Source of the DNA: Actinopolymorpha alba DSM 45243
GTDB lineage: Bacteria > Actinomycetota > Actinomycetes > Propionibacteriales > Actinopolymorphaceae
Assembly: GCF_000373925.1 (NCBI RefSeq)
Contig: NZ_KB892756.1
Coordinates: forward strand, 40,843-94,031
Length of the DNA: 53,189 nt
Reading direction: 5' to 3'
The position numbers were made by a program, and so were the translations under genes. This document shows, in pieces, positions 15,642-36,377 of the stretch. The notes below the pieces were generated by a model. It was not told the DNA's origin and made no database searches. It saw only the letters and a list, made by a program, of their open reading frames with translations. How positions within the stretch are numbered: the stretch's first letter is position 1; each line of letters begins with the position of its first letter.

Positions 15642-16709
15642 ATGCGAGCACTGGTGCTCTCGGGGGGCGCTGGTACGCGCCTGCGGCCGATCACACACAC
15701 GTCGGCCAAGCAGCTCGTACCGGTAGCCAACAAACCCGTTCTGTTCTACGGCCTGGAGGCGATCGCCGCCGCCGGGATCGTCCAGGTCGGCATCGTCGTC
15801 GGTGACACGGCCAACGAGATCAAGGAAGCGGTCGGTGACGGCGCGGAGTTTGGGCTGGAGGTCACCTACATCCCGCAGGACGCCCCGCTCGGCCTGGCCC
15901 ACGCGGTGCTGATCGCCAGCGACTTCCTGGGCGACGAAGACTTCGTGATGTATCTCGGCGACAACTTCATCGTCGGTGGCATCACGCCCCTGGTCGACGA
16001 GTTCCGCGCGAGCCGGCCAGACGCGCAGATCCTCCTCACGCACGTACCCAACCCCACCGCGTTCGGGGTCGCCGAGCTCGACGCCGACGGCCGGGTGGTC
16101 GCACTGGAGGAGAAGCCCAAGCAGCCCAAGAGCGACCTCGCCCTCGTCGGTGTCTACATGTTCACGCCGGCGATCCACCAGGCGGTCCGCGAGATCGAGC
16201 CGTCGTGGCGGGGCGAGTTGGAGATCACCCACGCCATCCAGTGGCTCATCGACAACGACCGGGACGTCAGGTCGACGGTGATCTCCGGCTACTGGAAGGA
16301 CACCGGCAACGTCGACGACATGCTCGAGGTCAACCGCTCCGTGCTCGAGACCCTCGAGCCGAACATCCAGGGGTCGGTCGACGAGCGGTCCGAGATCATC
16401 GGTCGGGTCGTCGTCGAGAAGGGGGCCGAGATCGTCGGCTCGCGGATCGTGGGCCCGGTGATCGTGGGCGCCAACACCCGCGTCACCGACTCCTACGTCG
16501 GTCCGTTCACCTCGGTGCAGGAGGACTGCCGCATCGTGGACTCCGAGATCGAGTTCTCCATCGTGCTCCACCATTCGTCCATCGAGGGCGTACGCCGGAT
16601 CGAGGCGTCGCTCATCGGCCACCATGTCGAGGTCACGCCGGCGCCGCGGGTGCCCAAGGCACACCGGCTGGTCCTCGGTGATCACAGCAGGATTCAGATC
16701 AGTTCATGA
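15642..16709 (+). CDS. rmlA: Glucose-1-phosphate thymidylyltransferase, long form
   Basis: The 355-residue enzyme makes dTDP-glucose from dTTP and glucose 1-phosphate, the first step to dTDP-L-rhamnose. The nucleotidyltransferase motif LSGGAGTRLRP is at residues 6-16, the conserved Lys lies in SAKQLVPVANKP, and the metal site in VMYLGDNF. From about residue 245 a left-handed beta-helix follows (repeated hexapeptide-like IIGRVVVEKGAEIVG, IVGPVIVGANTRV), which marks the long form common in actinomycetes. It is the first gene of an rmlABD cluster; its stop overlaps ATG 16706, an alternative rmlB start. Confidence 0.93.
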   Translation: MRALVLSGGAGTRLRPITHTSAKQLVPVANKPVLFYGLEAIAAAGIVQVGIVVGDTANEIKEAVGDGAEFGLEVTYIPQDAPLGLAHAVLIASDFLGDEDFVMYLGDNFIVGGITPLVDEFRASRPDAQILLTHVPNPTAFGVAELDADGRVVALEEKPKQPKSDLALVGVYMFTPAIHQAVREIEPSWRGELEITHAIQWLIDNDRDVRSTVISGYWKDTGNVDDMLEVNRSVLETLEPNIQGSVDERSEIIGRVVVEKGAEIVGSRIVGPVIVGANTRVTDSYVGPFTSVQEDCRIVDSEIEFSIVLHHSSIEGVRRIEASLIGHHVEVTPAPRVPKAHRLVLGDHSRIQISS

Positions 16710-16735
16710 CAGAGCACTCCCAGGGGAGATCAACG

Positions 16736-17764
16736 GTGTCCTCGCCCGGCCCGGGTCCACGCGTTCTCGTCACCGGTGGGGCCGGGTTCATCGGCTCCCA
16801 CTTCGTCCGCACCGCTCTCGGCGTCGAGGCAGACTCGGGTTCGCCCGCCTACCCCGGACTCGCCGACGCCCAGATCACGGTCCTCGACAAGCTGACGTAC
16901 GCAGGTAACCCCGCCAACCTCGACCGCGTACGCCAGTGGCCCGGGTTCGCGTTCGTCCAGGGCGACATCACCGATCCGGCCCTCGTCGACCAGCTGATGG
17001 CCGAGCATGACGCCGTCATCCACTTCGCCGCGGAGTCGCATGTCGACCGGTCGATCCAAGGTGCGGCCGACTTCGTGGTGACCAACGTCGTCGGCACGCA
17101 GACGCTGCTCGACGCCGCTCTGCGGCACGGTGTCGGTCCGTTCGTCCACGTCTCCACCGACGAGGTGTACGGCTCGATCTCCGAAGGCTCCTGGCCTGAG
17201 ACCGACCCGCTGCAGCCCAACTCTCCCTACTCCGCGTCCAAGGCGTCGAGCGACCTCATCGCGCTGGCCTACCACCGCACCCACGGTCTCGACGTCCGCG
17301 TGACGCGATGCTCCAACAACTACGGGCCCCATCAGTTCCCCGAGAAGGTCATCCCGCTCTTCATCACCAACCTGCTCGACGGCAAGCAGGTGCCGTTGTA
17401 CGGCGACGGCCTCAACATCCGCGACTGGCTCCACGTCGACGACCACTGCCAGGGCATCGCGCTCGTCTTCGAGAAGGGCCGCGCCGGCGAGGTCTACAAC
17501 ATCGGGGGCGGCACCGAGATCACCAACAAGGAGCTGACCGACCGCCTCCTCAACGCGTGCGGTGCGACCTGGGACAGTGTCGAGTACGTCGAAGACCGCA
17601 AGGGACACGACCGGCGCTACTCCGTCGACTGGACGAAGATCAACAGCGAGCTGGGCTACCAGCCGCGGCACGACTTCGGGACCGGCCTCGCCGACACCGT
17701 GGCGTGGTATCGCGACAACCGCGACTGGTGGGAGCCGCTCAAGAAGAAGGCAGCCCTGTCGTGA
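16736..17764 (+). CDS. rmlB: dTDP-glucose 4,6-dehydratase
   Basis: This extended short-chain dehydrogenase of about 342 residues converts dTDP-glucose to dTDP-4-keto-6-deoxyglucose with bound NAD. The nucleotide motif GGAGFIG lies near residues 14-20. The active site has STDEVYGS and the YSASK motif; NNYGPHQFPEK is the family substrate signature. GTG 16736 is preferred because GGGGAG lies eight bases upstream. ATG 16706, overlapping the rmlA stop, is the alternative and adds ten residues. The rmlD start overlaps its stop codon (GTGA), so the three genes are coupled. Confidence 0.92.
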   Translation: MSSPGPGPRVLVTGGAGFIGSHFVRTALGVEADSGSPAYPGLADAQITVLDKLTYAGNPANLDRVRQWPGFAFVQGDITDPALVDQLMAEHDAVIHFAAESHVDRSIQGAADFVVTNVVGTQTLLDAALRHGVGPFVHVSTDEVYGSISEGSWPETDPLQPNSPYSASKASSDLIALAYHRTHGLDVRVTRCSNNYGPHQFPEKVIPLFITNLLDGKQVPLYGDGLNIRDWLHVDDHCQGIALVFEKGRAGEVYNIGGGTEITNKELTDRLLNACGATWDSVEYVEDRKGHDRRYSVDWTKINSELGYQPRHDFGTGLADTVAWYRDNRDWWEPLKKKAALS

Positions 17765-18612
17765 CCTGGCTGGTGACCGGCGCGGGCGGCATGCTCGGCC
17801 AGGACGTGCTTGCCCGGCTGGCGGCCGAGGGCGAGGACGCCATCGCGCTCCGGCACGCCGACCTCGACATCACCGACGCGGCCGCGGCCCGGGTGGTCCT
17901 CGCCGAGCACGAGCCGGCAGTGGTCGTCAACTGCGCGGCGTACACCGCCGTCGACGACGCCGAGACACACGAGGACGAGGCCTTCCGCATCAACGGCCTC
18001 GGCCCGCGTGTGCTCGCCGAGGCCTGCGCCGCCTCGGGTGCTCGGCTCCTGCACGTCTCCACCGACTACGTCTTCGCCGGCGACGGCACGACGCCGTACG
18101 CCGAAGACGCCAAGCCGGCGCCGCGTACGGCCTACGGACGGACGAAGCTCGCAGGCGAGGAGGCGGTCCTTGACACGCTTCCCGAGTCTGGCGCCGTCGT
18201 GCGCACCGCCTGGCTCTATGGCGCGCACGGGCCCAACTTCGTCCGCACGATGATGCGTCTTGAGTCCGAACGCGAGACCATCGACGTCGTGGCCGACCAG
18301 CGGGGCCAGCCGACCTGGACCGCCGACGTCGCCGAACGCCTGCTCGCCCTGGGGAGGGCTCCCGCGGCGAGCGGCGTGTTCCACGCCACCAACTCCGGCG
18401 AGGCAACCTGGCACGAGCTCGCGCAGGAGGTATTCCGGTTGTTGGGCGCGGACCCCGATCGGGTACGCCCCACGACCACCGACAAGTTTCCCCGGCCAGC
18501 ACCCCGGCCGGCGTACAGCGTCCTCGGCCACGACCGCTGGGCCGAATTCGGGATCCAACCGATCCGTGAATGGCGCCAGGCTCTCCGTGCTGCGTTCATC
18601 ACGCTGGCGTGA
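17761..18612 (+). CDS. rmlD: dTDP-4-dehydrorhamnose reductase
   Basis: This 283-residue reductase makes the last step to dTDP-L-rhamnose. It opens with the NADPH motif VTGAGGMLGQD and has VNCAAYTAVDDAE, STDYVFAGDG and the catalytic Tyr/Lys pair in YGRTKLAGE, all hallmarks of RmlD. Start GTG 17761 overlaps the rmlB stop as GTGA. Upstream in-frame sequence is the shifted frame of rmlB and is not coding. With rmlA, rmlB and the nearby rmlC it completes the dTDP-rhamnose pathway within this window. Confidence 0.92.
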   Translation: MTWLVTGAGGMLGQDVLARLAAEGEDAIALRHADLDITDAAAARVVLAEHEPAVVVNCAAYTAVDDAETHEDEAFRINGLGPRVLAEACAASGARLLHVSTDYVFAGDGTTPYAEDAKPAPRTAYGRTKLAGEEAVLDTLPESGAVVRTAWLYGAHGPNFVRTMMRLESERETIDVVADQRGQPTWTADVAERLLALGRAPAASGVFHATNSGEATWHELAQEVFRLLGADPDRVRPTTTDKFPRPAPRPAYSVLGHDRWAEFGIQPIREWRQALRAAFITLA

Positions 18613-18749
18613 GCGTACGGACGTCCCATGTGGCGGGCGACGGACGCCGCGGCACCCATTGCCGCTTCACATCGAGTTGGCTACAGTCAGCGAATTCCCG
18701 GGCCGCCCCCACCCGAACGATCGTCAGGTATGACGAGGAGTGTTCCTGA

Positions 18750-19766
18750 GTGCATCGCCACGAATTCCTTCGCAAGCTGCACGAGGTGTCCAAGCCACGC
18801 ACCTATTTCGAGGTGGGTATCAACGACGGGCGCAGCCTGACGTTGTCCCGTGTCCCGACGGTCGCCGTTGACCCGGCGTTCAAGGTCGTGAAGGAAGTTC
18901 GCTGCGACCTCCACATGATCCGGGAGACCAGCGACGACTTCTTCGCACGCGAGGAGCCGTTCGAGCATCTTCAGGGCGCCAAGGTCGACTTGGCGTTCAT
19001 CGACGGCATGCATCTGTTCGACTTCGCACTGCGCGACTTCATCAATGCCGAGCCCCACCTCGACTGGACCAGCGTCGTCGTCCTCGACGACATGATGCCC
19101 CGCAACATCCCCGAAGCCGCACGAGACCGCCACACCACGGCCTGGACTGGCGACGTCTACAAGGTGATCCCGGTCCTCCAGCGGTACCGCCCCGATCTCC
19201 GCCTCGCCGTCGTCGACACACAGCCGACCGGTGTCGTGGTGGTCCTTGGCGTCAACCCGACCAACACGGCTTTGGCGGACAAGTACGACGAAATCCTCGA
19301 GACCTACGCTGTCCCCGATCCCCAGCAGGTGCCCGACGTCCTGCTCAACCGCACGATCGCGATGCGCCCGGAAGAACTCCTCGAGGCGCCATTCTGGTCG
19401 TCGCTCGTCGCCGCGCGCGAAGACGAGAGCACTGAGTTCGGGCCGGATGAGCTTCGGGCCACCATTGACGAATCCCTCTCGCTCGGCAGTCGCACATCGC
19501 TTGCCGGGTGGCAGCCCGAGCCGCAACCCGCACCCGCCGATAATGCGGTGTCTGGTGAGGTGGCCACGCCTGAGGCGGCGCGCGCGGTCACCGCGACCGT
19601 GCCAACGCCCCAGTCTGCCGGTGGTATTTCTCAGCGGATCACCCGCGCCGCGGCCGGCAACCCTGGCCTATGGAAGCTGGGTAAAGGGGTGGTCAATCGA
19701 CTTCCATTAGGTTGGCGTCGTTCGATCCGCAAGCACGTCTATCAGGCTCGCCGCACCCACGTGTGA
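18750..19766 (+). CDS. Class I SAM methyltransferase-like protein
   Basis: The 338-residue protein starts at GTG 18750 with GAGGAG ten bases upstream. Residues 15-200 resemble the Methyltransferase_24 fold: the SAM-binding strand TYFEVGINDGRSL, the acidic end of strand 2 (VAVDPAF), VDLAFIDGMHLFDFALRDF, and VVVLDDMMPRN. From about residue 230 a Pro/Ala-rich linker leads to a basic C-terminus (RLPLGWRRSIRKHVYQ) that could lie on the membrane. Position between rml and teichoic-acid genes suggests it modifies a glycan or its carrier, but no substrate can be named. A sugar-O-methyltransferase is a reasonable guess. Confidence 0.7.
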   Translation: MHRHEFLRKLHEVSKPRTYFEVGINDGRSLTLSRVPTVAVDPAFKVVKEVRCDLHMIRETSDDFFAREEPFEHLQGAKVDLAFIDGMHLFDFALRDFINAEPHLDWTSVVVLDDMMPRNIPEAARDRHTTAWTGDVYKVIPVLQRYRPDLRLAVVDTQPTGVVVVLGVNPTNTALADKYDEILETYAVPDPQQVPDVLLNRTIAMRPEELLEAPFWSSLVAAREDESTEFGPDELRATIDESLSLGSRTSLAGWQPEPQPAPADNAVSGEVATPEAARAVTATVPTPQSAGGISQRITRAAAGNPGLWKLGKGVVNRLPLGWRRSIRKHVYQARRTHV

Positions 19767-19952
19767 GGCGCCACTGGCATGTACTACGTATCCAAGTTGA
19801 TTGCGGCATCCTGATCGTGCGGCTTGGTCGCGGTCTCTCGGCTTCTTTGCCGACAGGCTTCCGCTCAAGTTGATCATGAATGTGGCGAGTTGCCCACTAT
19901 GTGAGATCGCCCCGGAGCGGCGGCCGGCCAGCCAGCCGGCAGTAGCCGGCCG
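19767..19952. terminator. Convergent intergenic region with GC-rich hairpin
   Basis: Between the methyltransferase-like gene and rmlC lies a GGCCGGC...GCCGGCC stem around 19921-19950, a plausible terminator for both. Upstream are fragments AAGTTGATCATGA (about 19867) and TATGTGAGATCG (about 19899), which resemble motifs of the dispersed palindromes elsewhere. Confidence 0.45.
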
Positions 19953-20561
19953 TCACCCCCGGTCGGAGCTGCGCCGCAGCGTGGCGAGGTAGGCCTGGCA
20001 GTCGTCGTACGCCGGAAGCAGGCCGGTCCGCTCGGCCTCCGCCAGCGATGGCGCGGCGGCGTCCTTCTCCGACAGGATCGGCTCCAGGTCGGCCGGCCAC
20101 TCGATGCCGATCTCCGGGTCGAGCGGGTTGACCCCGTGCTCGCGGCTCGGCGCGAAGCCTTCGGAGCAGAGGTACAGCAGCGTGGCGTCATCGGTGAGGG
20201 CCATGACGGCGTGCCCGAGACCTTCGCTGATGTAGACCGCCCGGCGGGTCTCGTCGTCCAGCCTGACCGCCTCCCACTGGCCGAAGGTGGCGGAGCCGAC
20301 CCGGATGTCGACGATGACGTCGAGCATCGCGCCGCGCGTGCACGTGACGTACTTCGCCTGGCTCGGTGGCACGTCGGCGAAGTGGATGCCGCGGAGCACC
20401 CCGCACCGGGACACCGAGCAGTTTGCCTGCCGGAGCGCCAGGTCGTGTCCGGTGGCCTTCCGGAACTCCTCACCGGAGAACCACGGCGAGAACAGCCCGC
20501 GGTCGTCGGGGAAGACCGGCGGCTCGACCACCCAGGCTCCGTCGATGCTCAGTGCCTTCAC
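19953..20561 (-). CDS. rmlC: dTDP-4-dehydrorhamnose 3,5-epimerase
   Basis: The 202-residue cupin enzyme epimerises C3 and C5 of dTDP-4-keto-6-deoxyglucose. RmlC landmarks are PPVFPDDRGLFSPWF, the RQANCSVSRCGVLRGIHF stretch with the catalytic His, KYVTCTRGAMLDVIVDIR, and YISEGLGHAVMAL. Length is normal. Start GTG 20561 follows AGGAG by eight bases. It is on the opposite strand to rmlABD and directly downstream of a GT2 gene, 51 bases away, so it is likely co-transcribed with that gene. Confidence 0.92.
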   Translation of the reverse strand: MKALSIDGAWVVEPPVFPDDRGLFSPWFSGEEFRKATGHDLALRQANCSVSRCGVLRGIHFADVPPSQAKYVTCTRGAMLDVIVDIRVGSATFGQWEAVRLDDETRRAVYISEGLGHAVMALTDDATLLYLCSEGFAPSREHGVNPLDPEIGIEWPADLEPILSEKDAAAPSLAEAERTGLLPAYDDCQAYLATLRRSSDRG

Positions 20562-22963: not shown

Positions 22964-24634
22964 ATGATGGCGGTACGCACAGTGAGACCGAGCGGACCGT
23001 CCGCTGGCACGAAGAGGGGAAGTGACGCGACCGTGCCCGACACGAGGCCCGATCCGACGCCCGAGCCGACGCCCGGTACGCCGCCGGAGCAGGGGACGGA
23101 GTTGAGCGAGCCGCGGAGGGCCGGGACACCGCTGCGCACCGTCGCTGTAGTGCTCGCCGGTGGCACCGGCGTCAGGGTGGGCCTGAGCCTTCCCAAACAG
23201 CTGCTCAAAGTCGCCGGCAAACCTCTTCTCGAGCACACTCTCGAGGTGTTCGAGGGATCGCCAGACATCGACGAGATCATCGTCTTGATGGTGCCCGGCT
23301 GGACCGGCGAGGTGGAGAAGATCGTCAAGAACGCCGGGTTCCGCAAGGTCACGCGGGTCCTGGAAGGCGGTGCCTCCCGTAATGACACCACCCGGGTGGC
23401 GCTCGACGCGGTGGGTCCGGGTGAGGCGAAGGTGCTCTTCCACGACGCCGTACGCCCGCTGCTCGACCACCGCATCATCGCCGACTGCGTGACCGCACTC
23501 GACACCTTCGCCGCGGTCGACGTGGCCATCCCGTCAGCCGACACGATCATCGTTGTCGACGACGGGATCATCACCGACATTCCCCGCCGCGACCGCCTCC
23601 GCCGTGGGCAGACGCCGCAGGCCTTCCGGCTCTCCACGATCCGCCGGGCCTACGAGTTGGCCGCCAAGGACCCGCACTTCGCGGCGACTGACGACTGCGC
23701 CGTGGTGTTGCGCTATCTTCCCGACGTCCCGATCACGGTCGTCGAGGGGTCCGAACGCAACATGAAGGTGACGTACCCCGTCGACGTGTTCCTCGCCGAC
23801 CAGCTGTTCCGGCTGGGTTCGCACACGCCGCCGGGCCCGCTGTCGACCGACGAGGCGAGCGAGCTGCTCGCCGGCAGGACGCTGGTGGTGTTCGGTGGCA
23901 GCTACGGTATCGGCGCGGAGATCGGGGACGTGGCCCGCGAGTTGGGCGCGACGGTCTTCAGCTTCAGCCGGTCCGCGACCGGCACCCACGTCGAGGACCC
24001 CGAGCATGTACGCGCGGCGTTGGAGCAGGCCTACCAGGAGTCCGGCCGGATCGACTTCGTGGCCGTGACCGCCGGCGTGCTGCACACCGCGGCTCTGGCG
24101 GACTGTCCCGACGAGCTCATCACCGAGAGCCTGCAGGTCAACCTGCTCGGGCCGGTGTACATCGCCCGCGCCGCGCACCGCTACCTCGCCGAGACCGGCG
24201 GCCACCTGCTGCTGTTCACCTCGAGCTCCTACACCCGTGGCCGGGCCGGCTACAGCCTCTACTCCTCGACGAAGGCGGCGGTCGTCAACCTCACGCAGGC
24301 GCTCGCCGATGAGTGGGCGGGCGACGGCATCCGCGTCAACTGCATCAACCCCGAGCGCACCCAGACACCGATGCGGACCCGCGCCTTCGGCGAGGAGCCG
24401 CCCGGCACGCTGCTTCCGGCCCGTGACGTCGGGCTCGCGTCGCTCGACGTCCTGCTGTCGGAGCAGACCGGTCACGTGGTCGACGTACGTCTGGCGCCGG
24501 CCGCGGGTCCGGTCACCACGCCGCCGGGCGAGCAGGACCCCGCGCAGGAGATCTCGGCGGCTCTGGACCAGGTGGAGGAAGCCGCCGCCGAAGGCGATGA
24601 GGTCGGCGTCGACGCGGACGAGTTGCGCGGGTAA
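22964..24634 (+). CDS. Fused CDP-ribitol synthase: cytidylyltransferase plus SDR reductase (Bcs1-like)
   Basis: This 556-residue protein joins two enzymes. Residues about 50-285 are an IspD/TarI-like cytidylyltransferase: VVLAGGTGVRVGLSLPKQ, FHDAVRPLLD, RRGQTPQAFR, and MKVTYPVDVFLAD. Residues about 300-520 are a short-chain dehydrogenase: VFGGSYGIGAEIG, the catalytic Ser/Tyr/Lys set in FTSSSYTRG and YSLYSSTKAA, then VNCINPERTQTPM. Haemophilus Bcs1 has the same order and makes CDP-ribitol from ribulose 5-phosphate. Firmicutes use separate TarI and TarJ, the latter from another dehydrogenase family. The N-terminal 45 residues are a Pro/Glu-rich tail; GTG 23033 is a possible later start. The gene begins a run with two polymerase-like genes. 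Confidence 0.85.
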   Translation: MMAVRTVRPSGPSAGTKRGSDATVPDTRPDPTPEPTPGTPPEQGTELSEPRRAGTPLRTVAVVLAGGTGVRVGLSLPKQLLKVAGKPLLEHTLEVFEGSPDIDEIIVLMVPGWTGEVEKIVKNAGFRKVTRVLEGGASRNDTTRVALDAVGPGEAKVLFHDAVRPLLDHRIIADCVTALDTFAAVDVAIPSADTIIVVDDGIITDIPRRDRLRRGQTPQAFRLSTIRRAYELAAKDPHFAATDDCAVVLRYLPDVPITVVEGSERNMKVTYPVDVFLADQLFRLGSHTPPGPLSTDEASELLAGRTLVVFGGSYGIGAEIGDVARELGATVFSFSRSATGTHVEDPEHVRAALEQAYQESGRIDFVAVTAGVLHTAALADCPDELITESLQVNLLGPVYIARAAHRYLAETGGHLLLFTSSSYTRGRAGYSLYSSTKAAVVNLTQALADEWAGDGIRVNCINPERTQTPMRTRAFGEEPPGTLLPARDVGLASLDVLLSEQTGHVVDVRLAPAAGPVTTPPGEQDPAQEISAALDQVEEAAAEGDEVGVDADELRG

Positions 24635-24646
24635 AGCGACCTAGGC

Positions 24647-26563
24647 GTGCGTACGATCCAGCTCACCGAACGGGTACCCGCCCCCGACCTGGGGCGGGTG
24701 CCGCTCGCACTCGCGGGGGCGCTCGGCCTCGGCTACCTCGCGCTGCTGGTGGCGGCGCTCGTGCCGTGGGCCGGGCTCTTCCTGGCGGCCGCGGTCGTGG
24801 TGACCGGCCTGGAGATCGTCGTCCCGTCGCGGGCAGCGTTCGCCGGCTGGACGTTCGGCCGAGCCGGCGCGAGTGCCTCCTGGCGCGGGCTGCTCGGGGC
24901 GGTCGCGGTCCTCATCCTGCTGGTGCGGGAGGACTCTCCGGCGGGTTGGTTCCTGGTCGCGGTGGGCGGCCTGCTCGCCACCGCGCTCCTGCGTGCCCTC
25001 GGGACCGCGCTGGGCGAGGTGGTTCGCCGGCAACGCAAGATGCCGGTCGTCACCCGAGGGCTATCGCTCGCACCCGTCCGCATCCCACCGGCGCCGCATC
25101 CGCTCCTCGGGCAACACGCGGAAGCCACGCTCGGCTGGCCCGGCGTACTCCTGTCTGGCGGGTCGGCGGTCACGGTACTTGCCGGGTCGGTCCTCCCGCT
25201 GGTCGTGGGCGCCGCGCTGGCGACCCTGGTGGTGGCGGCCGGAGCCGGTGCGCTGGCGTACTCCGCGCTCGGCATGCGCCGGGTGACCCGACCGCGGCTC
25301 CAGGCCGCCGTCAACCGCGCGCTCGAGAAGGCCGCGCCGGAGGTGGCGCTCTACTTCGGTGGCACCCCCGAGACGCTCTACCAGCTGGAGATGTGGGTCG
25401 AGACCCTCGAACGCCTCGACGTGCCGTCGCTCCTCATCCTGCGCGACCGGGAGAGCCTGCGGCAGCTGGGCCCGACCCGGCTGCCGGTCCTGTGCGTCGA
25501 GCACGGCAACGTGCTGATGGCCCAGGCGTTGCCGCACCTGCGGGTGGCGATGTACGTCTCGCACGCGGTGAGCAACCTCCACCTGCTCAGGCGGCGCGGC
25601 GTACGCCACGTCTTCATCGGGCACGGCGACAGCGACAAGGGCGTGACCACCAACCCGTTCCTCAAGGCGTACGACGAGGTGTGGGTGTCAGGGCCAGCGG
25701 CGCGGGAGCGGTTCAGGGTCGCCGCGACCGGCGTCGACGACTCCGGCGTCGTGGAGATCGGGCGTCCCCAACTCGACGTCGTGGCGGCGCTGGAGCGGCC
25801 GCAGCCCGAGTCGGAGGAGGAGTCCAAGCGGCTGACCGTTCTGTACGCCCCGACCTGGGAGGGCTACGGCGACGAGCCGCACCAGACCTCGGTCGGGCCG
25901 TGCGGGGTCACCCTCGTCCGGCAGTTGCTGGAGGAGTCCGACGTCCGCGTGCTCTACCGGCCCCACCCGCTGGCGGGCACCCGGGACCCGGCGGTGGCGC
26001 GGGCTCATCAGGAGATCCTCGAGTTGCTGGGCGTCTCGCAGGCACCCGTCCCGGTCGGGCCGCAGGAGGCCTACACCTGGGCGCGTGACGACCTCGAGGT
26101 GGCCGTCGCCCCGGTGCACACCTCGCGCGCCGAGCAGGTGGCCGCACTCGAGGTGTGGGCCGCCAAGCAGCTGACACCCGACCCCGACCGGGACGGGCAC
26201 CTGCTCGTACCCTCCCCGCAGTTCAGTCTGTACGCCTGCTTCGCCGCGGCCGACCTGCTCCTGTGCGACGTGTCGAGCGTGATCAGCGACTTCCTCGCCA
26301 GCGGGCGACCGTACGCCGTCACCAACCCGGCCAGCCTGCCGGCCACGGAGTTCGCCGTTAGGTACCCTTCGAGCCGCGGCGGCTACCTCGTCGAACCCGA
26401 CGGTCACGGACTCACGGGCCTCCTCGCCGCCGGGAGGGCAGAGGCCGACCCCGCGGAGTCCGAGCGGGTGCTCCTTCGTGAGCAGCTTCTCGGTCCCGCC
26501 GATCCGCCGGCCCTCGAACGCATGCGGAAGGCGGTGGCGCAGTCGGTGAGTTTCGTGACCTAA
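24647..26563 (+). CDS. Membrane-anchored CDP-ribitol/CDP-glycerol phosphotransferase (TagF/TarL-like) 1
   Basis: The 638-residue protein has hydrophobic N-terminal segments (about 17-60, 80-125 and 165-200), then a GT-B Glyphos_transf domain. Signature stretches are VALYFGGTPETLYQ, RHVFIGHGDSDKGV (catalytic-type His), VEIGRPQLDV, VLYAPTWEGYGD, VLYRPHPLAGTRDP and CDVSSVISDFLASGRP. This domain transfers glycerol or ribitol phosphate from a CDP carrier to build teichoic acid on the inner membrane face. The CDP-ribitol enzyme 12 bases upstream makes ribitol the likelier unit. Firmicute TagF lacks such a multi-helix N-terminus. GTG 24647 has no clear ribosome site, so translation may depend on the upstream gene. 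Confidence 0.82.
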   Translation: MRTIQLTERVPAPDLGRVPLALAGALGLGYLALLVAALVPWAGLFLAAAVVVTGLEIVVPSRAAFAGWTFGRAGASASWRGLLGAVAVLILLVREDSPAGWFLVAVGGLLATALLRALGTALGEVVRRQRKMPVVTRGLSLAPVRIPPAPHPLLGQHAEATLGWPGVLLSGGSAVTVLAGSVLPLVVGAALATLVVAAGAGALAYSALGMRRVTRPRLQAAVNRALEKAAPEVALYFGGTPETLYQLEMWVETLERLDVPSLLILRDRESLRQLGPTRLPVLCVEHGNVLMAQALPHLRVAMYVSHAVSNLHLLRRRGVRHVFIGHGDSDKGVTTNPFLKAYDEVWVSGPAARERFRVAATGVDDSGVVEIGRPQLDVVAALERPQPESEEESKRLTVLYAPTWEGYGDEPHQTSVGPCGVTLVRQLLEESDVRVLYRPHPLAGTRDPAVARAHQEILELLGVSQAPVPVGPQEAYTWARDDLEVAVAPVHTSRAEQVAALEVWAAKQLTPDPDRDGHLLVPSPQFSLYACFAAADLLLCDVSSVISDFLASGRPYAVTNPASLPATEFAVRYPSSRGGYLVEPDGHGLTGLLAAGRAEADPAESERVLLREQLLGPADPPALERMRKAVAQSVSFVT

Positions 26564-26715
26564 CGCGCCCATCGATCTCGGGCCGGCCGCAGACTTGACA
26601 CAGCCGGCGGCGTTCCGGATCCGTTCGACCGTACGTACGACATGTGTGGTTCCGGCCCCGGGCTTCGCCCGCCTGGGCCCACCCACACCTCACGACCTCT
26701 GGGAGACGTTCCATC

Positions 26716-28704
26716 TTGCTTCACCTGCTCGCCCGTCGACGGTCGCTGATCGCTGTGTTGGCGGGGCTCCTCGCGAGTTACGCCGCGCTCGTCGTGACCG
26801 CGATCCTCGCCCGCCCGCTCGCGTTCGCGGCGGCGTTGCTGGTCGCGTCAGCCATCGACATCGTGGTCGAACGCAGGTTCCGTCCGGTCGTGGCGCTGCT
26901 GCGCCGGGCGCAGTTCGGCATCTCCCACCGTGCGTTCGTGCAGGTCTTTCTGTTCCTGCTGCTGGTCGCGATCACCGACGCCAACCGCGCGATGAGCCGC
27001 TTCGAGCTGCTCCTGATCACGCTGGTCGCGCTCACTGTGCCGGTCTGCCGGATCGGGTACCTCGGCCTGCTCACCCTGGTCCGGCGGCGGATGCTGCCGC
27101 CGGTGGAGGTGCGCAACCTCGACCTGCCGGCGGAGTTCCACACTGCCCGGCTGCCGAAGGTGCTGACCGATGATCCGACGCCGCGACTCATGGCGCTGGG
27201 TCTGCTGCCGGTGCTCGCCGGTGCGCTGAGCGTGTGGTACGGCCCGTTCTGGCTGTTCGGCGTGAGCGTTGCGGCGTACACCCTGATAGTGGTCGGCGCG
27301 GGCGTGTTCCTGTTACTCCAGCTGGTGCGGTTGGGCCGGCGGCCTGACCGGCAACGCTGGCTTGACGGTGTGAGCGCCGCGTTGCGCGCACATCATCCCG
27401 AGGTCGTTCTGTACTTCAGCGGCTCGGCCAACTCCGTCTACCAGGCCGAGATGTGGCTTCGGACGCTGGAGAAGATGCCGCACACCTGCGTAGTAGTGGT
27501 CCGGGGACGGCACGCGATCCGGGGCCTCGGACGCACCGAGCTCCCGATCGTCTGCATCCCGAGTGCCGTCGACCTGATGAACTTCGCGCTGCCCGACGCG
27601 CGGATCGCGTTGTACGTCGCCAACGTCGGCAACAACATCCACCTCCTGCGCGAGCCCCGGGTCAAGCACGTCTTCATCGGGCACGGGGACAGCGACAAGG
27701 TGGCGAGCTTCAACCCGTTCAGCAAGGTCTACGACCAGATCTGGGTGGCGGGACCCGCGGGGCGCGAGCGGTACTCCCGGGCCCAGGTAGGCGTCCGCGA
27801 CGAGGACATCGTGGAGGTGGGCCGGCCGCAGCTCGACATGGTCGAACGCCGGACCGAACCACTCCCCACCCCAACGCCCCAGCGCCCCCTGAGCGTCCTC
27901 TACCTGCCCACCTGGGAGGGCTGGACCGACGACGACTTCCAGACGTCGTTGACGGTGATGGGTCCCGCGCTGGTCGACCGGCTGCTCCGGTCACCGATCC
28001 CGGTGCGGCTCATCTACAAGCCGCACCCGCTGACCGGTACCCGCGACCCACGGGCGGCCGCTGCCGACCGGGAGATCCGGCAGATGATAGCGGCGGCCCA
28101 GGAGGAACTCGAGCCGATCCACCCCGAAACGGAAGGCCAGCTCGATCGGATCGCCCGCCGGCTGGCGCGGCGCGACCTGTCTGTTGCCGAGGCCGAGCGT
28201 CTCCAGGCCGAATGGCACTCCGTCTACTGGAACGCCTACGCGGGTCGGCATGTCACCGTTCGCGGGCGGCTCCCGATGATCTTCGACTGCTACAACGTCG
28301 CCGACCTGATGATCGCGGACGTGTCGAGTGTCGTCTCCGACTTCCTCGCCAGCGGCCGCCCCTGTGTTGTCGCCAATCCGAAAGGGCTGGACGAGGGGGA
28401 GTTCCGGACGACCTTCCCGAGCACCCGGTCGGCGTACCTCCTCAACCCCGACACCGACGTCGACGTCCTGCTGGCGACGATCACCGGAGCCGACCCGCTG
28501 GCGTCCGCCCGGCTCGAGGCGCGGGCGTACCTTCTCGGGCCCGACACGCCTCCGGCGCAGGAGCGTTGGAACGCCGCGACGGACGCGCTCCTCGCGGCGG
28601 CTGACCTCGAATGGGATGGCGAGCACGGCGCGGGTCCGGCCCTGGAGATGCCGGCCGTCCTCGCCGAGGCCGTTGACGGCGGCCAGACCGGTGCTCCCGC
28701 GTAG
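26716..28704 (+). CDS. Membrane-anchored CDP-ribitol/CDP-glycerol phosphotransferase (TagF/TarL-like) 2
   Basis: Paralogue of the preceding gene, about 662 residues. N-terminal membrane helices (about 8-60 and 70-115, plus a pair near 155-195) precede the Glyphos_transf domain with VVLYFSGSANSVYQ, KHVFIGHGDSDKVA, VEVGRPQLDM, VLYLPTWEGWTDD, IYKPHPLTGTRDP and ADVSSVVSDFLASGRP. All likely active-site stretches are intact. TTG 26716 is preferred because GGGAGA precedes it; the frame extends to GTG 26644. Two such enzymes in tandem suggest a division such as primer and polymerase, as TarK/TarL or TagB/TagF do. The hairpin-rich stretch after it may end the transcript. Confidence 0.82.
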   Translation: MLHLLARRRSLIAVLAGLLASYAALVVTAILARPLAFAAALLVASAIDIVVERRFRPVVALLRRAQFGISHRAFVQVFLFLLLVAITDANRAMSRFELLLITLVALTVPVCRIGYLGLLTLVRRRMLPPVEVRNLDLPAEFHTARLPKVLTDDPTPRLMALGLLPVLAGALSVWYGPFWLFGVSVAAYTLIVVGAGVFLLLQLVRLGRRPDRQRWLDGVSAALRAHHPEVVLYFSGSANSVYQAEMWLRTLEKMPHTCVVVVRGRHAIRGLGRTELPIVCIPSAVDLMNFALPDARIALYVANVGNNIHLLREPRVKHVFIGHGDSDKVASFNPFSKVYDQIWVAGPAGRERYSRAQVGVRDEDIVEVGRPQLDMVERRTEPLPTPTPQRPLSVLYLPTWEGWTDDDFQTSLTVMGPALVDRLLRSPIPVRLIYKPHPLTGTRDPRAAAADREIRQMIAAAQEELEPIHPETEGQLDRIARRLARRDLSVAEAERLQAEWHSVYWNAYAGRHVTVRGRLPMIFDCYNVADLMIADVSSVVSDFLASGRPCVVANPKGLDEGEFRTTFPSTRSAYLLNPDTDVDVLLATITGADPLASARLEARAYLLGPDTPPAQERWNAATDALLAAADLEWDGEHGAGPALEMPAVLAEAVDGGQTGAPA

Positions 28705-31508: not shown

Positions 31509-33500
31509 ATGAAGGTCAGCGTCGTCGTCCCGCTGGTTGGGAGCGCTGGCCGGTCAGCAGTCGAACGCCTTCAGCGGTGTGTCGAATCCCTGCTCCGCCA
31601 GAGCATGCCTCCGCAAGACTACGAGTTCCTGGTCGTCGCGCCGGCTGGCATGAATGCCCCGCCGGCCCACCTTCCCCGGTTGTCCGGGGACGGTTCCCGG
31701 GTACGCATCCACCAGGTGAGCGACGCCTCGGACGCGGGAGCGCTGCGCAATGCCGGGTTGGCGCTGGCGGGTGGCGAGTACGTGCTGTTCGTCGATCCCG
31801 GCACCGAACTCGGTCGGGAGGCGCTCGCGCGCATGCACGCGCTGGCGGTGCGGAACGGCTCCGATGTCGTGCTGGGCAAGGCGTCCGGGCCGTTGCCCGG
31901 GTACGACGGACTCTTCCGGCGTACCCTCGAGCGCTGCGACGTCGAGGACGCTCCGCTGTTCGACGCTCTGGACGCAGGCCACCTGTTCCGGCGTTCGTTC
32001 CTGATGGACGCGGAGATCCGGTTCGTCGAGGGGCATCCGCTGGCGGATCAGCTCGTCATGGCCCAGGCCTACCTCACGGCCAAGACGGTGACGGTGCTGA
32101 GCGACTACCCCTGCTACGTCCGGGCGCCCGGGGACGGCGAGCCGGCCGGCTCCGACGCGTGGGCCGAGCGGCCGCTCGCGTACGTCACCGGCCTGCGCGA
32201 CCTGCTCGACACGCTCGTCGCTGGTACCGAACCAGGTGACCTGCGCGACCGGCTGCTGGGGTGGGTCCTACGGACGGAGATCCTCGACCGGCTGAGCGAG
32301 CCGGGTTTGCTGTCGTTGCCCGAGCCGCGCCGCGAGGAGTTCTTCCACGCCGTACGCGCGCTCGCGGCCGACCACATCCCGGCCCGTCTTCATCCGGGGC
32401 TGTCCCCGACCCACAGGCTCCGGGCGGCGCTGCTCGAGCGGGGGCGGTTGGACGCGCTGGTGGAGTTCGCGCGCCGGTGTCGCGGCATCAAGTCCCAGGC
32501 CCGGCTGGCTGGCCTGCGGTGGGAGGACGGCCGGCTCTGCGCTGACGTCCGCCTGGAGATCGTGCATACCGACGGTTCCCCGGTCGTGGTGGTGGAACGC
32601 GACGGACGGTTCCATCTGGATCCGGCGCTGGTGGCAGAGCTTCCCGGCGGGCCGGTGGACGAGGGTGACGTCTGGGAGGTGGGCGACCCACTGGCTGGTA
32701 CGGCGGCCGAGGCGATGGTGCGCGACCGGGACGCGGACGTGTGGTGGCCCGTGCCGGCGCGGCTGCTGGCTTCCGTCGAGCCCGTCGATGGGACGCCGGT
32801 CGATGCGGCGCCCATCGATGCGGCGCGTGAGCGGCGTCTTCGGGTTGTGCTGGCGGGGACGCTCGCGTTCGACCCGCGCACGCTGGCCTGCGGTGCGCCG
32901 GTCGGCCGTGGCGTGTACGACGTCTCGGTGAGCATGACCGCGCTCGGCTTCACCCGCCGACCGCGCCTTGGCGGGGACCGGACGCCGACCACCCAGGCGT
33001 CACCGGCCATCGTGGGCGGTCGGGCCGTCTTCGTACAGCCGTACTGGTCGCGCCCCGGCGGCCACCTGAGCCTGGACGTCGAGGAGCGGTTCAGGACCCT
33101 CGGCCGCGAACTCGCCACCCGTGGGGTGGGATCGGCACGTGGCCGCGACGGACGGGTCCGCCTGCTACTGCCCGTGGTCGCCGGCCCGGACGCCGCGGTC
33201 AGGGATGTCGAGGTCATGCTCGGCCGTGGGCCGGCGGCATCCCGCGTGCCCGCGCGGATCGAGCCGGGCGTCGATGGAGTCCTGTTGTCGTTCGGCGATG
33301 GCATCGGGCTCCCCAACGGGCACTATCCGCTGACGCTCCACATCGATCCGTCCGACCAGCGGCCGGCGGTGCCGATCGCGACGGCGACTGTCCGGTCGGG
33401 GCGGATCGCGCGGGTTCGTGGTACGCCATACGCCCAGACGCCACGCCGCGGCATCGCGAGGCTGCGCGGCTCCTGGATGCCCCGCCAGACCCTTCAGTGA
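31509..33500 (+). CDS. Degenerate GT2-like protein (paralogue 3), donor-site motifs lost
   Basis: The 663-residue protein aligns with the preceding one along its length, including LCADVRLEIVHTDGSPVVV and the C-terminal modules. Its GT-A domain has lost key residues. The nucleotide loop VDDGSTD is replaced by VVAPAGMNA, the metal site DQDD by DPGT (FVDPGTELG), HQENSGWPGKPRN by HQVSDASDAGALRN, and the catalytic-type RLEDQLF by PLADQLV. It keeps a full open frame, a GGGGAG ribosome site before ATG 31509, and normal codon use. It is therefore not an obvious pseudogene; a structural or regulatory partner of paralogue 2 is likelier. A changed donor specificity is the alternative. Confidence 0.8.
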   Translation: MKVSVVVPLVGSAGRSAVERLQRCVESLLRQSMPPQDYEFLVVAPAGMNAPPAHLPRLSGDGSRVRIHQVSDASDAGALRNAGLALAGGEYVLFVDPGTELGREALARMHALAVRNGSDVVLGKASGPLPGYDGLFRRTLERCDVEDAPLFDALDAGHLFRRSFLMDAEIRFVEGHPLADQLVMAQAYLTAKTVTVLSDYPCYVRAPGDGEPAGSDAWAERPLAYVTGLRDLLDTLVAGTEPGDLRDRLLGWVLRTEILDRLSEPGLLSLPEPRREEFFHAVRALAADHIPARLHPGLSPTHRLRAALLERGRLDALVEFARRCRGIKSQARLAGLRWEDGRLCADVRLEIVHTDGSPVVVVERDGRFHLDPALVAELPGGPVDEGDVWEVGDPLAGTAAEAMVRDRDADVWWPVPARLLASVEPVDGTPVDAAPIDAARERRLRVVLAGTLAFDPRTLACGAPVGRGVYDVSVSMTALGFTRRPRLGGDRTPTTQASPAIVGGRAVFVQPYWSRPGGHLSLDVEERFRTLGRELATRGVGSARGRDGRVRLLLPVVAGPDAAVRDVEVMLGRGPAASRVPARIEPGVDGVLLSFGDGIGLPNGHYPLTLHIDPSDQRPAVPIATATVRSGRIARVRGTPYAQTPRRGIARLRGSWMPRQTLQ

Positions 33501-33566
33501 TCATGATCATGAGGGTTTTCGGGACGTATAGCCCTTTCTGGCTTCATGATCACGAACATGATCACC
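33497..33566. repeat. GATCATGATCATGA inverted repeat, possible terminator
   Basis: GTGATCATGATCATGA, overlapping the stop codon of the GT2-like gene, is mirrored by TTCATGATCAC and CATGATCACC at the right end. A GGG...GCCC stem lies between. The overlap with the stop codon suits a terminator; the repeated TGATCATG is unusual. Confidence 0.5.
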
Positions 33567-33748
33567 GGGTCTGGCCGGCCCACAGGGAAGCCCCGCGGGG
33601 ACTCGTACAACTACTCCGCGCCAACCCGCGTCGCGGTGTCGGACGGATCCGTCGGTGGCCCGGATTACAGTCGTACGAGACGGCCCGGCAGGGTCGGCCC
33701 AGACCCGCTGGCAGCTGTCCGGGAGCGTGATACCTCCGGGAGGTGGCG

Positions 33749-34672
33749 GTGGGAGCGCTGATCGAGGCCCGCGGCCTGACCAAGCGGTTCGACTCGTTCG
33801 TCGCGGTCGCTGGCATCGACGTCGACGTCTTCCGGGGAGAGGTCTTCGGTTTTCTCGGTCCCAACGGCGCCGGCAAGAGTTCGACGATGCGGATGATCGG
33901 CTGCGTGTCGCCCGTCTCGAGCGGCACGCTGCGCGTCCTTGGCATGGACCCAGCCGTCGACGGACCCAGGATCCGGGCCCGGCTCGGCGTCTGCCCGCAG
34001 GAGAACTGGCTCGACGAGGAGCTCACAGTCCGCGAGAACCTCCTCATCTACGGCAGGTACTTCGGGCTGCCCAGGCGTACTCTCGCCGACCGCGCGGCGG
34101 AGCTCCTCGCCTTCGTCCAGCTCACCGACAAGGCCGACGCCCAGGTGGCCGACCTCTCCGGCGGCATGAAGCGCCGCCTCACGATCGCCCGGGCGCTGGT
34201 CAACGAGCCCGAGATCATGCTGCTCGACGAGCCCACCACCGGGCTCGATCCGCAGGCCCGGCACCTGGTCTGGGACCGCCTGATCCAGCTCAGGCAGGAG
34301 GGGGTGACCCTCGTCCTCACCACCCACTACATGGACGAGGCGGAGCAGCTTTGCGACCGGCTGGTGGTCATGGACGGCGGCACCATCGTGGCCGAGGGTT
34401 CGCCGCTCGACCTGATCCGCGCCCACGCCACCCGGGAGGTGGTGGAGTTGAGGTTCGTGGCGGGCCGTCAACAGGCGCTCGCGGCCGAGGTGGCCGACCT
34501 CGCCGACCGGGTCGAGGTGCTGCCCGACCGGGTCCTTCTCTACACCCAGGACGGTGACGCGGCGGCGAACGCCGTGCATCAACGGGGTCTGTCACCACCG
34601 GGCATCCTCGTCAGGCGGAGCAGCCTCGAAGACGTCTTCCTCCGGTTGACGGGCCGCACCCTCGTCGACTGA
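33749..34672 (+). CDS. ABC exporter ATPase (NodI/DrrA type)
   Basis: An ATPase of about 307 residues with Walker A GPNGAGKSS (about residues 39-47), Q-loop VCPQENWLD, signature LSGGMKRR, Walker B IMLLDEP and the H-loop TTHYMDEAEQL. A C-terminal extension of about 80 residues ends in SSLEDVFLRLTG, as in exporters of the NodI/DrrA group. GTG 33749 is preferred because GGGAGG lies five bases upstream; GTG 33743 is in frame too. Two ABC-2 permease genes follow. NodI-type systems export lipid-linked oligosaccharides, so export of the locus product is possible, but TagH, the usual teichoic-acid ATPase, is a different subgroup. Confidence 0.88.
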   Translation: MGALIEARGLTKRFDSFVAVAGIDVDVFRGEVFGFLGPNGAGKSSTMRMIGCVSPVSSGTLRVLGMDPAVDGPRIRARLGVCPQENWLDEELTVRENLLIYGRYFGLPRRTLADRAAELLAFVQLTDKADAQVADLSGGMKRRLTIARALVNEPEIMLLDEPTTGLDPQARHLVWDRLIQLRQEGVTLVLTTHYMDEAEQLCDRLVVMDGGTIVAEGSPLDLIRAHATREVVELRFVAGRQQALAAEVADLADRVEVLPDRVLLYTQDGDAAANAVHQRGLSPPGILVRRSSLEDVFLRLTGRTLVD

Positions 34673-34693
34673 CGTGTTCTCCGGAGCGGCCGC

Positions 34694-35467
34694 ATGGACA
34701 CCGCACTCCGCGCGCTGGAGTACTGGCTCCTGTCGTACAAACGGACCTGGCGGGGCACGATCGTGTCGAGCTTCCTGGTGCCCTTCCTGTATCTGGCCGC
34801 CATGGGCTTCGGCCTGGGCAGTTTCATCAACGCCGGCGCCGGGCGGGCCGCACTCGGTGGTCAGACGTACCTGCAGTTCATCGCGCCCGGGCTCCTCGCG
34901 GCGACCGCCATGCAGACAGCGGCGTTCGAGTCCTCTTATCCGGTGATGGGGAGCTGGAAATGGATCAAGACCTATTACGCGATGCTGGCGACACCGCTTC
35001 GCGTAAGTGATGTGCTGATCGGGCATCTCCTTTTCGTCGCCTTTCGGGTGCTCATGACGTCCATGGTTTATCTCGTCGTGATCACGGTTTTTGGTGCGGT
35101 CTCATCGCCGTGGGGCGTGCTGGCGATCGTGGCCGGCCTGCTCACTGGTCTCTCGGTCGCGACGCCGACATTCGCTCTGGCCGTGCGCTCCGAACGCGAC
35201 ACGGTGTTCTCCATGTATTTCCGGTTTGCGATCCTGCCGATGTTCCTGTTTTCGGGCGCGTTCTTTCCGGTGAGTCAACTGCCCGTCGTCGTACAACCGA
35301 TCGCGTACGCCACGCCGCTGTGGCACGGCGTTCATCTGGCGCGGATGTTCACCGAGGGGACGCTGTCTCCGGGTTGGATCGCGGTGAACGTCGGCTACCT
35401 CTGCCTGTGGATCGCGGCGGGCACCTGGTGGGCGGCCCGGGCCTTTCGCCGGCGTCTGGTGACGTGA
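34694..35467 (+). CDS. ABC-2 type permease, NodJ-like (1)
   Basis: The 257-residue integral membrane protein has about six helices: SSFLVPFLYLAAMGFGLG, IAPGLLAATAMQTAAF, VLMTSMVYLVVITVFG, LLTGLSVATPTFALAV, ILPMFLFSGAFFPVSQLP and VGYLCLWIAAGTWWAAR. The FLFSGAFFP stretch followed by PLWHGVHLAR is characteristic of NodJ permeases. Its ATG lies 21 bases after the ATPase stop. It probably forms a heterodimer with the next permease. Confidence 0.85.
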   Translation: MDTALRALEYWLLSYKRTWRGTIVSSFLVPFLYLAAMGFGLGSFINAGAGRAALGGQTYLQFIAPGLLAATAMQTAAFESSYPVMGSWKWIKTYYAMLATPLRVSDVLIGHLLFVAFRVLMTSMVYLVVITVFGAVSSPWGVLAIVAGLLTGLSVATPTFALAVRSERDTVFSMYFRFAILPMFLFSGAFFPVSQLPVVVQPIAYATPLWHGVHLARMFTEGTLSPGWIAVNVGYLCLWIAAGTWWAARAFRRRLVT

Positions 35468-35576
35468 ATGCCGCCGGCGCGGCCAGGTCGACGGTCATCG
35501 TTGTCGTCCGCCGTCGTTGCCCGCCCCACCTTCCTGGACAACGCTCGCACTCTCGTTTCGACCGGAGGTCCCTTCC

Positions 35577-36377
35577 ATGGCAGCGCTTATCGCCCGGGTC
35601 GTCCCGATCCCGCCGGTGCGTGGCCGCGGCTGGCTGCTGGTCGAACGCAACCTGATGGTCTACCGGCACGACTGGCTGGTGCTCGTCTCCGGTTTCTTCG
35701 AGCCGCTCTTCTATCTGCTTTCGATCGGTGTCGGTATCGCCCCGCTCGTGGGGAACTTCCAGGTCGGCGGCCACGCCGTGAGCTATCCGGCATTCATCGC
35801 GCCCGCCATGCTCGCCGCCAGTGCGATGAACGGCGCGATCGCCGACACGACGTACAACCTGTTCTTCAAACTCAAGTACGCCAAGCTTTATGACGCGGTC
35901 CTCGCGACGCCGCTGCGGCCGGTGGATATCGCGACGGGCGAGATTTGTTGGGCTCTGATCCGGGGCGGACTCTATTCGGCGGCATTCCTGCTGACCATGC
36001 TGGCGCTGGGGCTGGTCTTTTCCTGGTGGGCGGTGTTGGCGCTGCCGGCGGCTGTGTTGGTGGGATTCGCGTTCGCCGCCGCCGGTATGGCGGGTACGAC
36101 GTTCATGCGCAGCTGGCAGGATTTCGAGTTCATCAGCCTGGCGATCCTGCCGATGTTCCTGCTCTCGGCGACCTTCTTCCCGTTGTCGACCTATCCGCCA
36201 GTCGTCCGCCTGCTGGTGGAGTTGACGCCGCTCTACCACGGTGTGGCGCTCCTACGTGCCCTCACGCTCGGTACGCCGTCGTGGCAGTTGCTGGTGAGCG
36301 TCGCTTACCTCGCCGCGATGGCGGGCGTCAGCCTCTGGGTGTCGTCCCGTCGGATCGGTCGCGTCCTGCTGAAGTGA
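35577..36377 (+). CDS. ABC-2 type permease, NodJ-like (2)
   Basis: The 266-residue permease resembles the preceding one in layout but is clearly diverged. It carries SGFFEPLFYLLSIGVGI, FIAPAMLAASAMNGAI, SAAFLLTMLALGLVFSWW, and ILPMFLLSATFFPLSTYP followed by PLYHGVALLRAL. ATG 35577 has GGAGG ten bases upstream. Two unlike permeases with one ATPase imply a heterodimeric channel. It is the last gene of the surface-polymer region; about 480 gene-free bases rich in palindromes follow. Confidence 0.85.
   Translation: MAALIARVVPIPPVRGRGWLLVERNLMVYRHDWLVLVSGFFEPLFYLLSIGVGIAPLVGNFQVGGHAVSYPAFIAPAMLAASAMNGAIADTTYNLFFKLKYAKLYDAVLATPLRPVDIATGEICWALIRGGLYSAAFLLTMLALGLVFSWWAVLALPAAVLVGFAFAAAGMAGTTFMRSWQDFEFISLAILPMFLLSATFFPLSTYPPVVRLLVELTPLYHGVALLRALTLGTPSWQLLVSVAYLAAMAGVSLWVSSRRIGRVLLK

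Follow-up and report, generated by a model that had tools for sequence, protein, structure and literature searches.

A TarS/RmlT-type protein with a gutted donor site in a teichoic-acid locus

A gene in the teichoic-acid locus of Actinopolymorpha alba DSM 45243 encodes a protein, P0001, that by its sequence is a TarS/RmlT-type wall teichoic acid (WTA) glycosyltransferase stripped of its nucleotide-sugar- and metal-binding residues. A branch codon model showed that P0001 was held as a folded protein under purifying selection for most of its history, and presumably it is so held today. We regard it as possible, though a little short of an even chance, that P0001 serves as a non-catalytic polymer-binding or oligomerizing partner.

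The window, that is, the whole stretch of DNA analyzed (53,189 nucleotides), belongs to a draft genome of 7.98 Mb in 127 contigs with 3.69% estimated contamination, and its teichoic-acid locus spans 15.6 to 36.4 kb. The dTDP-L-rhamnose genes occupy 15642..20561 on both strands and comprise rmlA (15642-16709, +), rmlB (16706-17764, +), rmlD (within 17308-18612, +), and rmlC (19953-20561, -). A fused IspD-like cytidylyltransferase and short-chain dehydrogenase (22964..24634, +) has CDP-ribitol synthesis as its probable, inferred role and stands before two TagF-like polyol-phosphate polymerases with Glyphos_transf domains (24647..26563 and 26644..28704, both +). A profile search found a GT2 domain together with the TarS linker PF22181 in three window proteins, namely P0003 (20613..22682, -) and P0002 (29426..31447, +), which are intact TarS/RmlT-type glycosyltransferases, and P0001 (31509..33500, +). 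The P0001 gene lies 61 bp downstream of P0002 on the same strand in an operon-like position, between P0002 and the exporter genes, which encode an ABC transporter with an ATPase and two ABC-2 membrane proteins (33743..36377, +). By analogy with the Listeria rml/RmlT locus as described in the excerpted text of PMC4441387, the polymer of this locus would be a rhamnose-decorated ribitol phosphate. A scan of the region detected no promoter-like site, and seven terminator-like sites versus 3.0 expected, one of them within P0001. A glycosyl hydrolase family 85 protein (754 aa; 10963-13227, -) is encoded close to the locus.

The P0001 reading frame is exact, running from the ATG at 31509 to the TGA at 33500 (663 aa) with a GGGGAG stretch before it, and it is continuous without frameshift, as the original prediction had it. 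Its product is 47% identical to P0002 and 32% identical to P0003. Alignment with P0002 also confirmed the three motif changes described at the outset: VDDGSTD of the nucleotide-binding loop (P0002 residues 39-45) reads VAPAGMN (P0001 residues 43-49; 31635..31655, +), DQDD (92-95), the DxDD of intact relatives with TarS D91, D93, and D94, reads DPGT (96-99; 31794..31805, +), and LEDQL (175-179) reads LADQL (178-182; 32040..32054, +). Furthermore, the uracil-stacking tyrosine (TarS Y10) is replaced by valine, NSGWPGKPRN by DASDAGALRN, and PHKMF by AGHLF (31974..31988, +). The first aspartate of DxDD is kept, whereas the metal-ligand aspartate and the next one are lost, so that the equivalents of TarS D93, D94, and E177 are G, T, and A. 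The RRDD motif is altered as well; one arginine persists nearby, and the alignment is gapped there, so R206 is either gapped or lost. P0001 retains the equivalents of TarS R75, N76, and D91, and also the catalytic base aspartate as D180 (TarS D178, with which the mutated D198 of RmlT aligns). The description of a gutted donor site thus holds for the nucleotide loop, the metal aspartate, and the glutamate, but it had missed the kept base aspartate of LEDQL.

In the excerpted text of PMC5156392, TarS D93 is a metal ligand, E177 contacts the sugar O4/O6, and D178 is the proposed base; activity is abolished by R75A, D91A, D93A, D94A, E177A, and H210A and severely cut by D178N, R206A, and S212A. 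Among these nine activity-critical residues, D93, D94, and E177 are lost from P0001, R206 is gapped or lost, and R75, D91, and D178 are kept; S212 and H210 are uninformative, the S212 column being S/T/G among relatives and P0002 having asparagine at H210. Because residues essential in the TarS mutants described there are lost, canonical nucleotide-sugar transfer by P0001 is very unlikely. The kept base aspartate and arginine could mean residual chemistry. The Pfam GT2 score of P0001 was 36.8 bits versus 115.5 and 115.2 for the two intact relatives, and its PF22181 TarS linker scored 101.8 bits (cut-off, 27).

The predicted fold is full length and the basic tail is shortened

The full-length AlphaFold model of P0001 reached a pLDDT of 88.8 and a pTM of 0.88, and that of P0002 reached 91.4 and 0.88. 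Both models matched full-length Listeria RmlT best, followed by TarS and TarP. P0001 aligned to RmlT with a Z of 34.6 over 588 residues (rmsd 3.6; target TM, ~0.80; 19% identity), and to TarS residues 1-349 with a Z of 33.1. The RmlT match covers residues 1-627, and the modeled chain comprises a GT-A domain, a helical linker, and C-terminal beta modules; a fold common to P0001, P0002, and RmlT is no proof of function. The TarS/RmlT architecture of P0002 is retained in P0001.

The C-terminal modules are likewise present, but part of the basic C-terminal tail of P0002 is missing from P0001. The P0001 stop codon falls within the first bases of a palindromic repeat of ~72 bp (33498..33569, +), which occurs at ~40 places in the genome (64 matches counting inverted arms) and which resembles, in our view, elements of the REP or MITE type. 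Beyond the repeat, a basic stretch is encoded in another frame, and one weak match to the P0002 tail (E 0.18) lies in a frame different from that of the stretch. No clear trend emerged from the net charge of the individual domains.

Few of the aligned TarS-like proteins show such losses

A TarS-like alignment of 138 rows was assembled, and 6 fragments or cut copies were set aside, leaving 132 scored rows. None of the scored losses occurred in 128 of these (124 clusters at 99% identity). Two rows were gutted, P0001 and P0004, the latter from G007, a genome of a different genus in the same family; two more were partial (L049 and L138). Many of the loci had been fetched via the motif GEY..FVD, which touches the DxD site, so the sample is biased to intact proteins, and a class-wide search without this motif turned up further altered proteins. 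In the Streptomyces TarS-like protein at L138:7845-9710 (+), the nucleotide loop alone is changed (AGPAGK), with DHDD and ED kept, and this change may be a frameshift or start error.

Conserved sites were then defined by a conservation of 90% or more among 105 intact rows (102 at 99% identity and 87 at 90%). P0001 retained the consensus at 8/28 donor-loop sites, 33/41 other GT-A sites, 5/7 linker sites, and 6/6 C-terminal sites. The donor loops differed from the rest of GT-A with a Fisher p of 2e-5 for loops picked with the alignment in view, not blind, and the counts were unchanged after relatives were thinned to 90% identity. Anchoring on the eight comparable residues of the TarS paper, P0001 kept 3/8 versus 38/61 for conserved GT-A positions elsewhere (p 0.26). 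No significant excess loss was seen in windows extending 1 to 8 residues from these residues either (p 0.12 to 0.81). The pattern of selective loss therefore appears only when the nucleotide loop, the SGWPG loop, and PHK are counted in. Thus, selective loss at the P0001 donor site is suggestive but not proof. Since the loop choice was not blind and the TarS-anchored test was null, the argument that P0001 is maintained depends chiefly on omega. This null result also lowered the weight that we give to a non-catalytic partner and raised that of decay.

P0001 evolved under constraint, and decay retains weight

Nine sequences, without an outgroup, were fitted with a branch codon model in our own script, not PAML; the omega values are rough because dS on the branch is about 2.4-2.7, near saturation. 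Over the whole P0001 branch, omega was 0.158 (background, 0.090), and omega = 1 was rejected (LR 89.9). By part, omega was 0.126 in GT-A (background, 0.040; LR 25.3), 0.236 in the linker (0.081; LR 11.3), and 0.151 in the C-terminal modules (0.126; LR 51.1), with omega = 1 rejected in each. Purifying selection, which the original prediction had proposed to look for, is thus present on the P0001 branch, at 0.16 versus 0.09. Outside the donor loops, consensus retention in GT-A rose with site conservation (5/14, 14/39, 22/50, 20/34, and 33/41 over successive bins), and in the C-terminal modules it rose from 8/38 to 6/6.

These data have to be weighed against decay, that is, against a divergent TarS/RmlT-type gene (an old duplicate or a lateral arrival) that became dispensable and is drifting with no internal stop yet, a possibility that we take seriously and place well below an even chance. 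The GT-A and linker omega values, about three times background, are in line with decay, as are the tail loss with its stop codon inside an interspersed repeat and the lack of significant concentration of losses at the TarS-paper residues. The C-terminal omega near background, the rejection of omega = 1 in all parts, and the rise of consensus retention with conservation argue the other way. So does the frame, which runs unbroken through 663 codons and has ordinary GC values by codon position (0.78/0.53/0.86, like adjacent genes), but open frames are cheap in GC-rich DNA and this counts little. Slow C-terminal modules with a faster GT-A domain are expected if the scaffold and modules matter and the pocket does not, or if function was lost late; branch omega is a time average, and a long constrained history that ended in recent loss could give a similar value. 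Random decay, the outcome that the original prediction had set against its own reading, is therefore countered by selection over the whole branch but retains weight.

Also for decay, and against a maintained function, P0001 turned up in a single genome. The seven other family genomes (eight searched including its own) yielded no orthologue, and to that extent the protein is not conserved as the original prediction had called it. In G003 and G006, the P0002 orthologue directly adjoins the exporter gene and P0001 is absent there. Two scans of the GTDB collection, which may lack the near kin of this genome, required near-exact short peptides. The first returned no orthologue; nor did the second among the best 80 of 467 relatives, the closest listed being 45% identical.

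P0001 is not a simple tandem copy of its neighbor either, and "paralogue" proved a loose term for it: it is a 47% identical relative that fell outside the P0002 orthologue group in four protein trees. In one tree its neighbors were Streptomyces relatives (support 85/83). Grouping P0001 and P0002 alone was rejected in one test (p 1.9e-4) and reached only p-AU 0.0519 in another, and a union of P0001 with all P0002 orthologues was not rejected (p 0.148). Codon-level trees (six written, two identical when unrooted) allowed three placements within 1 SE, namely outside the P0002 group, beside P0002, or beside G003 plus the core group. In all codon trees dS, though near saturation, was 2.46-2.70 on the P0001 tip versus 0.77-0.81 for P0002, and with the tree position outside the P0002 group this does not favor a recent tandem duplication. 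P0001 is thus either an old duplicate that other genomes have lost or a relative gained by lateral transfer, rather than a fresh copy.

Donor-site loss recurs in other actinobacteria

The gutted homologue P0004 (L050:12694-14655, -) lies in the corresponding locus of G007, beside rmlC and two TagF-like genes. It has lost the nucleotide loop, the Arg-Asn motif (by a short deletion across it), DxD, the glutamate, and the base, and it kept the consensus at 4/28 donor-loop, 27/41 other GT-A, 5/7 linker, and 6/6 C-terminal sites. In the blind site test it showed excess loss for windows of 1-5 residues (p 0.009-0.028), with no significance for windows of 0, 6, or 8. It grouped with the intact G004_X1 of Actinopolymorpha (40% identity; bootstrap 97-99), not with P0001.

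The class-wide search covered 394 genomes, of which 66 had a match at 1e-25; 68 loci were fetched, and 71 distinct open frames plus four queries gave 75 rows. Ten proteins of one family, f20, had altered sites, L188, L225, and L236 had fewer changes, and 60 of the 75 rows had none. A follow-up on f20 covered 120 genomes, 52 of them matching at 1e-60, and the 41 frames examined for this gene represent 25 genus codes (L239-L268, L271, and L279-L288). All 41 were altered. At TarS D93 none has aspartate (glutamate in 2), and at E177 none has glutamate; aspartate is kept at D94 in 41/41 and at P0002 position 40 in 40/41, arginine at R75 in 40/41, and the base is glutamate in 39/41 and aspartate in 2/41. 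Pairwise omega within the clade was 0.047-0.112 (eight pairs). The altered gene had the same neighboring genes in the 8/8 loci compared, which read as a two-component pair, and its surroundings in 8 loci yielded no homologues of the polymerase, rml, or exporter genes of the window. The clade thus appears remodeled and tightly conserved, and its proteins would be either dead or metal-independent. A fourth TarS-like gene of the A. alba genome, on another contig (L043:3728-5281, -; 517 aa; none of the scored losses), is sister to this clade in two trees.

Tree tests rejected one ancient gutted lineage uniting P0001 with the G007 protein (p-AU 1.4e-6), P0001 with three altered f20 rows (4.5e-6), or all altered rows (6.4e-10). 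By these tests, which long branches limit, the donor-site change arose at least three times. The idea of a conserved non-catalytic protein gained from the recurrence of site loss in G007 and the f20 clade and lost from the lack of any P0001 orthologue.

These cases bear on whether P0001 pairs with P0002 at all. A stand-alone polymer-binding protein, acting for instance at the polymerases or the ABC exporter, would overlap with the reading that we favor, and we consider it rather unlikely as a separate explanation. The G007 protein is the only full TarS-like match of its genome (besides two short GT2 matches) and occupies a comparable locus, so pairing of gutted with intact copies is no general rule. 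In 8 f20 loci the altered genes have no polymerase, rml, or exporter homologues in their vicinity, and P0001 itself is located next to the exporter genes. Nevertheless, P0001 directly follows P0002, and the C-terminal modules are common to both.

A retooled enzyme, with a site reshaped to take a different donor or to transfer without metal by means of the kept aspartate base and arginine, is unlikely. The retained R75, N76, D91, and D178 equivalents would suit it, and in the f20 clade the several kept site residues, the change of the base to glutamate, and the tight constraint point to remodeling over ruin. P0001, however, lost the nucleotide loop, the metal aspartate, the sugar-binding glutamate, PHK, and most of RRDD together, single changes at D93, D94, or E177 being enough to abolish TarS activity (PMC5156392, in excerpt), and the G007 protein is also without the arginine, asparagine, and base. 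An artefact, in which assembly error, compensating frameshifts, or misalignment mimic the losses, is barely credible even for a draft assembly with some estimated contamination, because a single continuous in-frame match to P0002 spans the lost motifs (which rejects a frameshift), no significant match lies in another frame, the flanks are syntenic with relatives, and the altered motifs stand between well-aligned blocks.

Discussion

We favor, tentatively, a folded P0001 that is maintained for a role without catalysis. In this reading the GT-A scaffold, the helical linker, and the beta modules at the C-terminus would hold a poly(ribitol phosphate)-type polymer and/or oligomerize with P0002, and P0001 may tune how P0002, the active subunit, works along the chain. 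This polymer-binding or oligomerizing reading is suggested because the C-terminal modules are proposed to have these functions in TarS (PMC5156392, in excerpt) and are the best preserved part of P0001 relative to background. Pairing of P0001 with P0002 is suggested by position alone, the 61-bp gap on the same strand. Polymer binding is the function most easily common to all three cases, because the G007 and f20 proteins would have to function with no intact copy next to them.

More broadly, and with considerable doubt, we propose that TarS/RmlT-type enzymes repeatedly yield maintained relatives without the metal/donor site, at least three times in actinobacteria and with one clade over 25 genus codes. 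These may form an unrecognized non-catalytic or metal-independent layer, with P0001 and P0002 as a mixed assembly, that sets polymer decoration or hand-on for export. Should dead or retooled copies of the fold prove to be kept time and again, polymer decoration would include a structural or regulatory layer for which we found no assay, and it would be misleading to annotate these genes as glycosyltransferases. P0001 alone is a modest single-genome finding; the threefold recurrence with one conserved clade gives it assay value, and the f20 clade, a conserved case independent of the single window sequence, is a better assay subject than P0001. A search of the open-licence literature, with few other wordings tried, found no paper joining pseudoenzymes with teichoic-acid glycosyltransferases.

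The closest known system is Listeria monocytogenes RmlT, the WTA L-rhamnosyltransferase (PDB 8bz4-8bz8, 9gzj, and 9gzk), whose fold resembles P0001 over its whole length and whose base aspartate occupies the same position; RmlT has a DHD metal motif, whereas P0001 is without DxD and the nucleotide loop. Rhamnose rml genes stand in the cluster both in A. alba and in the Listeria rml operon, and RmlT is needed for WTA rhamnosylation in vivo (PMC4441387, in excerpt). Staphylococcus aureus TarS trimerizes via its carbohydrate-module-like C-terminal domains, for which roles in polymer binding and processivity are proposed (PMC5156392, in excerpt). TarS and TarP, which are WTA beta-GlcNAc transferases, share the PF22181 TarS_linker and the GT-A fold with P0001. 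To our knowledge, teichoic-acid-decorating enzymes have been described as active homo-oligomers.

Plant IRX9 (GT43) and GAUT7 belong to other families and another kingdom than P0001. By the excerpted account in PMC4132061, both are inactive glycosyltransferases required in polysaccharide synthase complexes, proteins of glycosyltransferase fold with a structural role beside active members; in IRX9, GLN replaces DxD. Their partner function is backed by genetics, and that of P0001 is a prediction. Similarly, EryCII/EryCIII pairs a non-catalytic enzyme relative with an active glycosyltransferase in a complex, the EryCII partner being a P450 homologue, unlike P0001, which is a relative of the glycosyltransferases themselves (PMC3391682, in excerpt).
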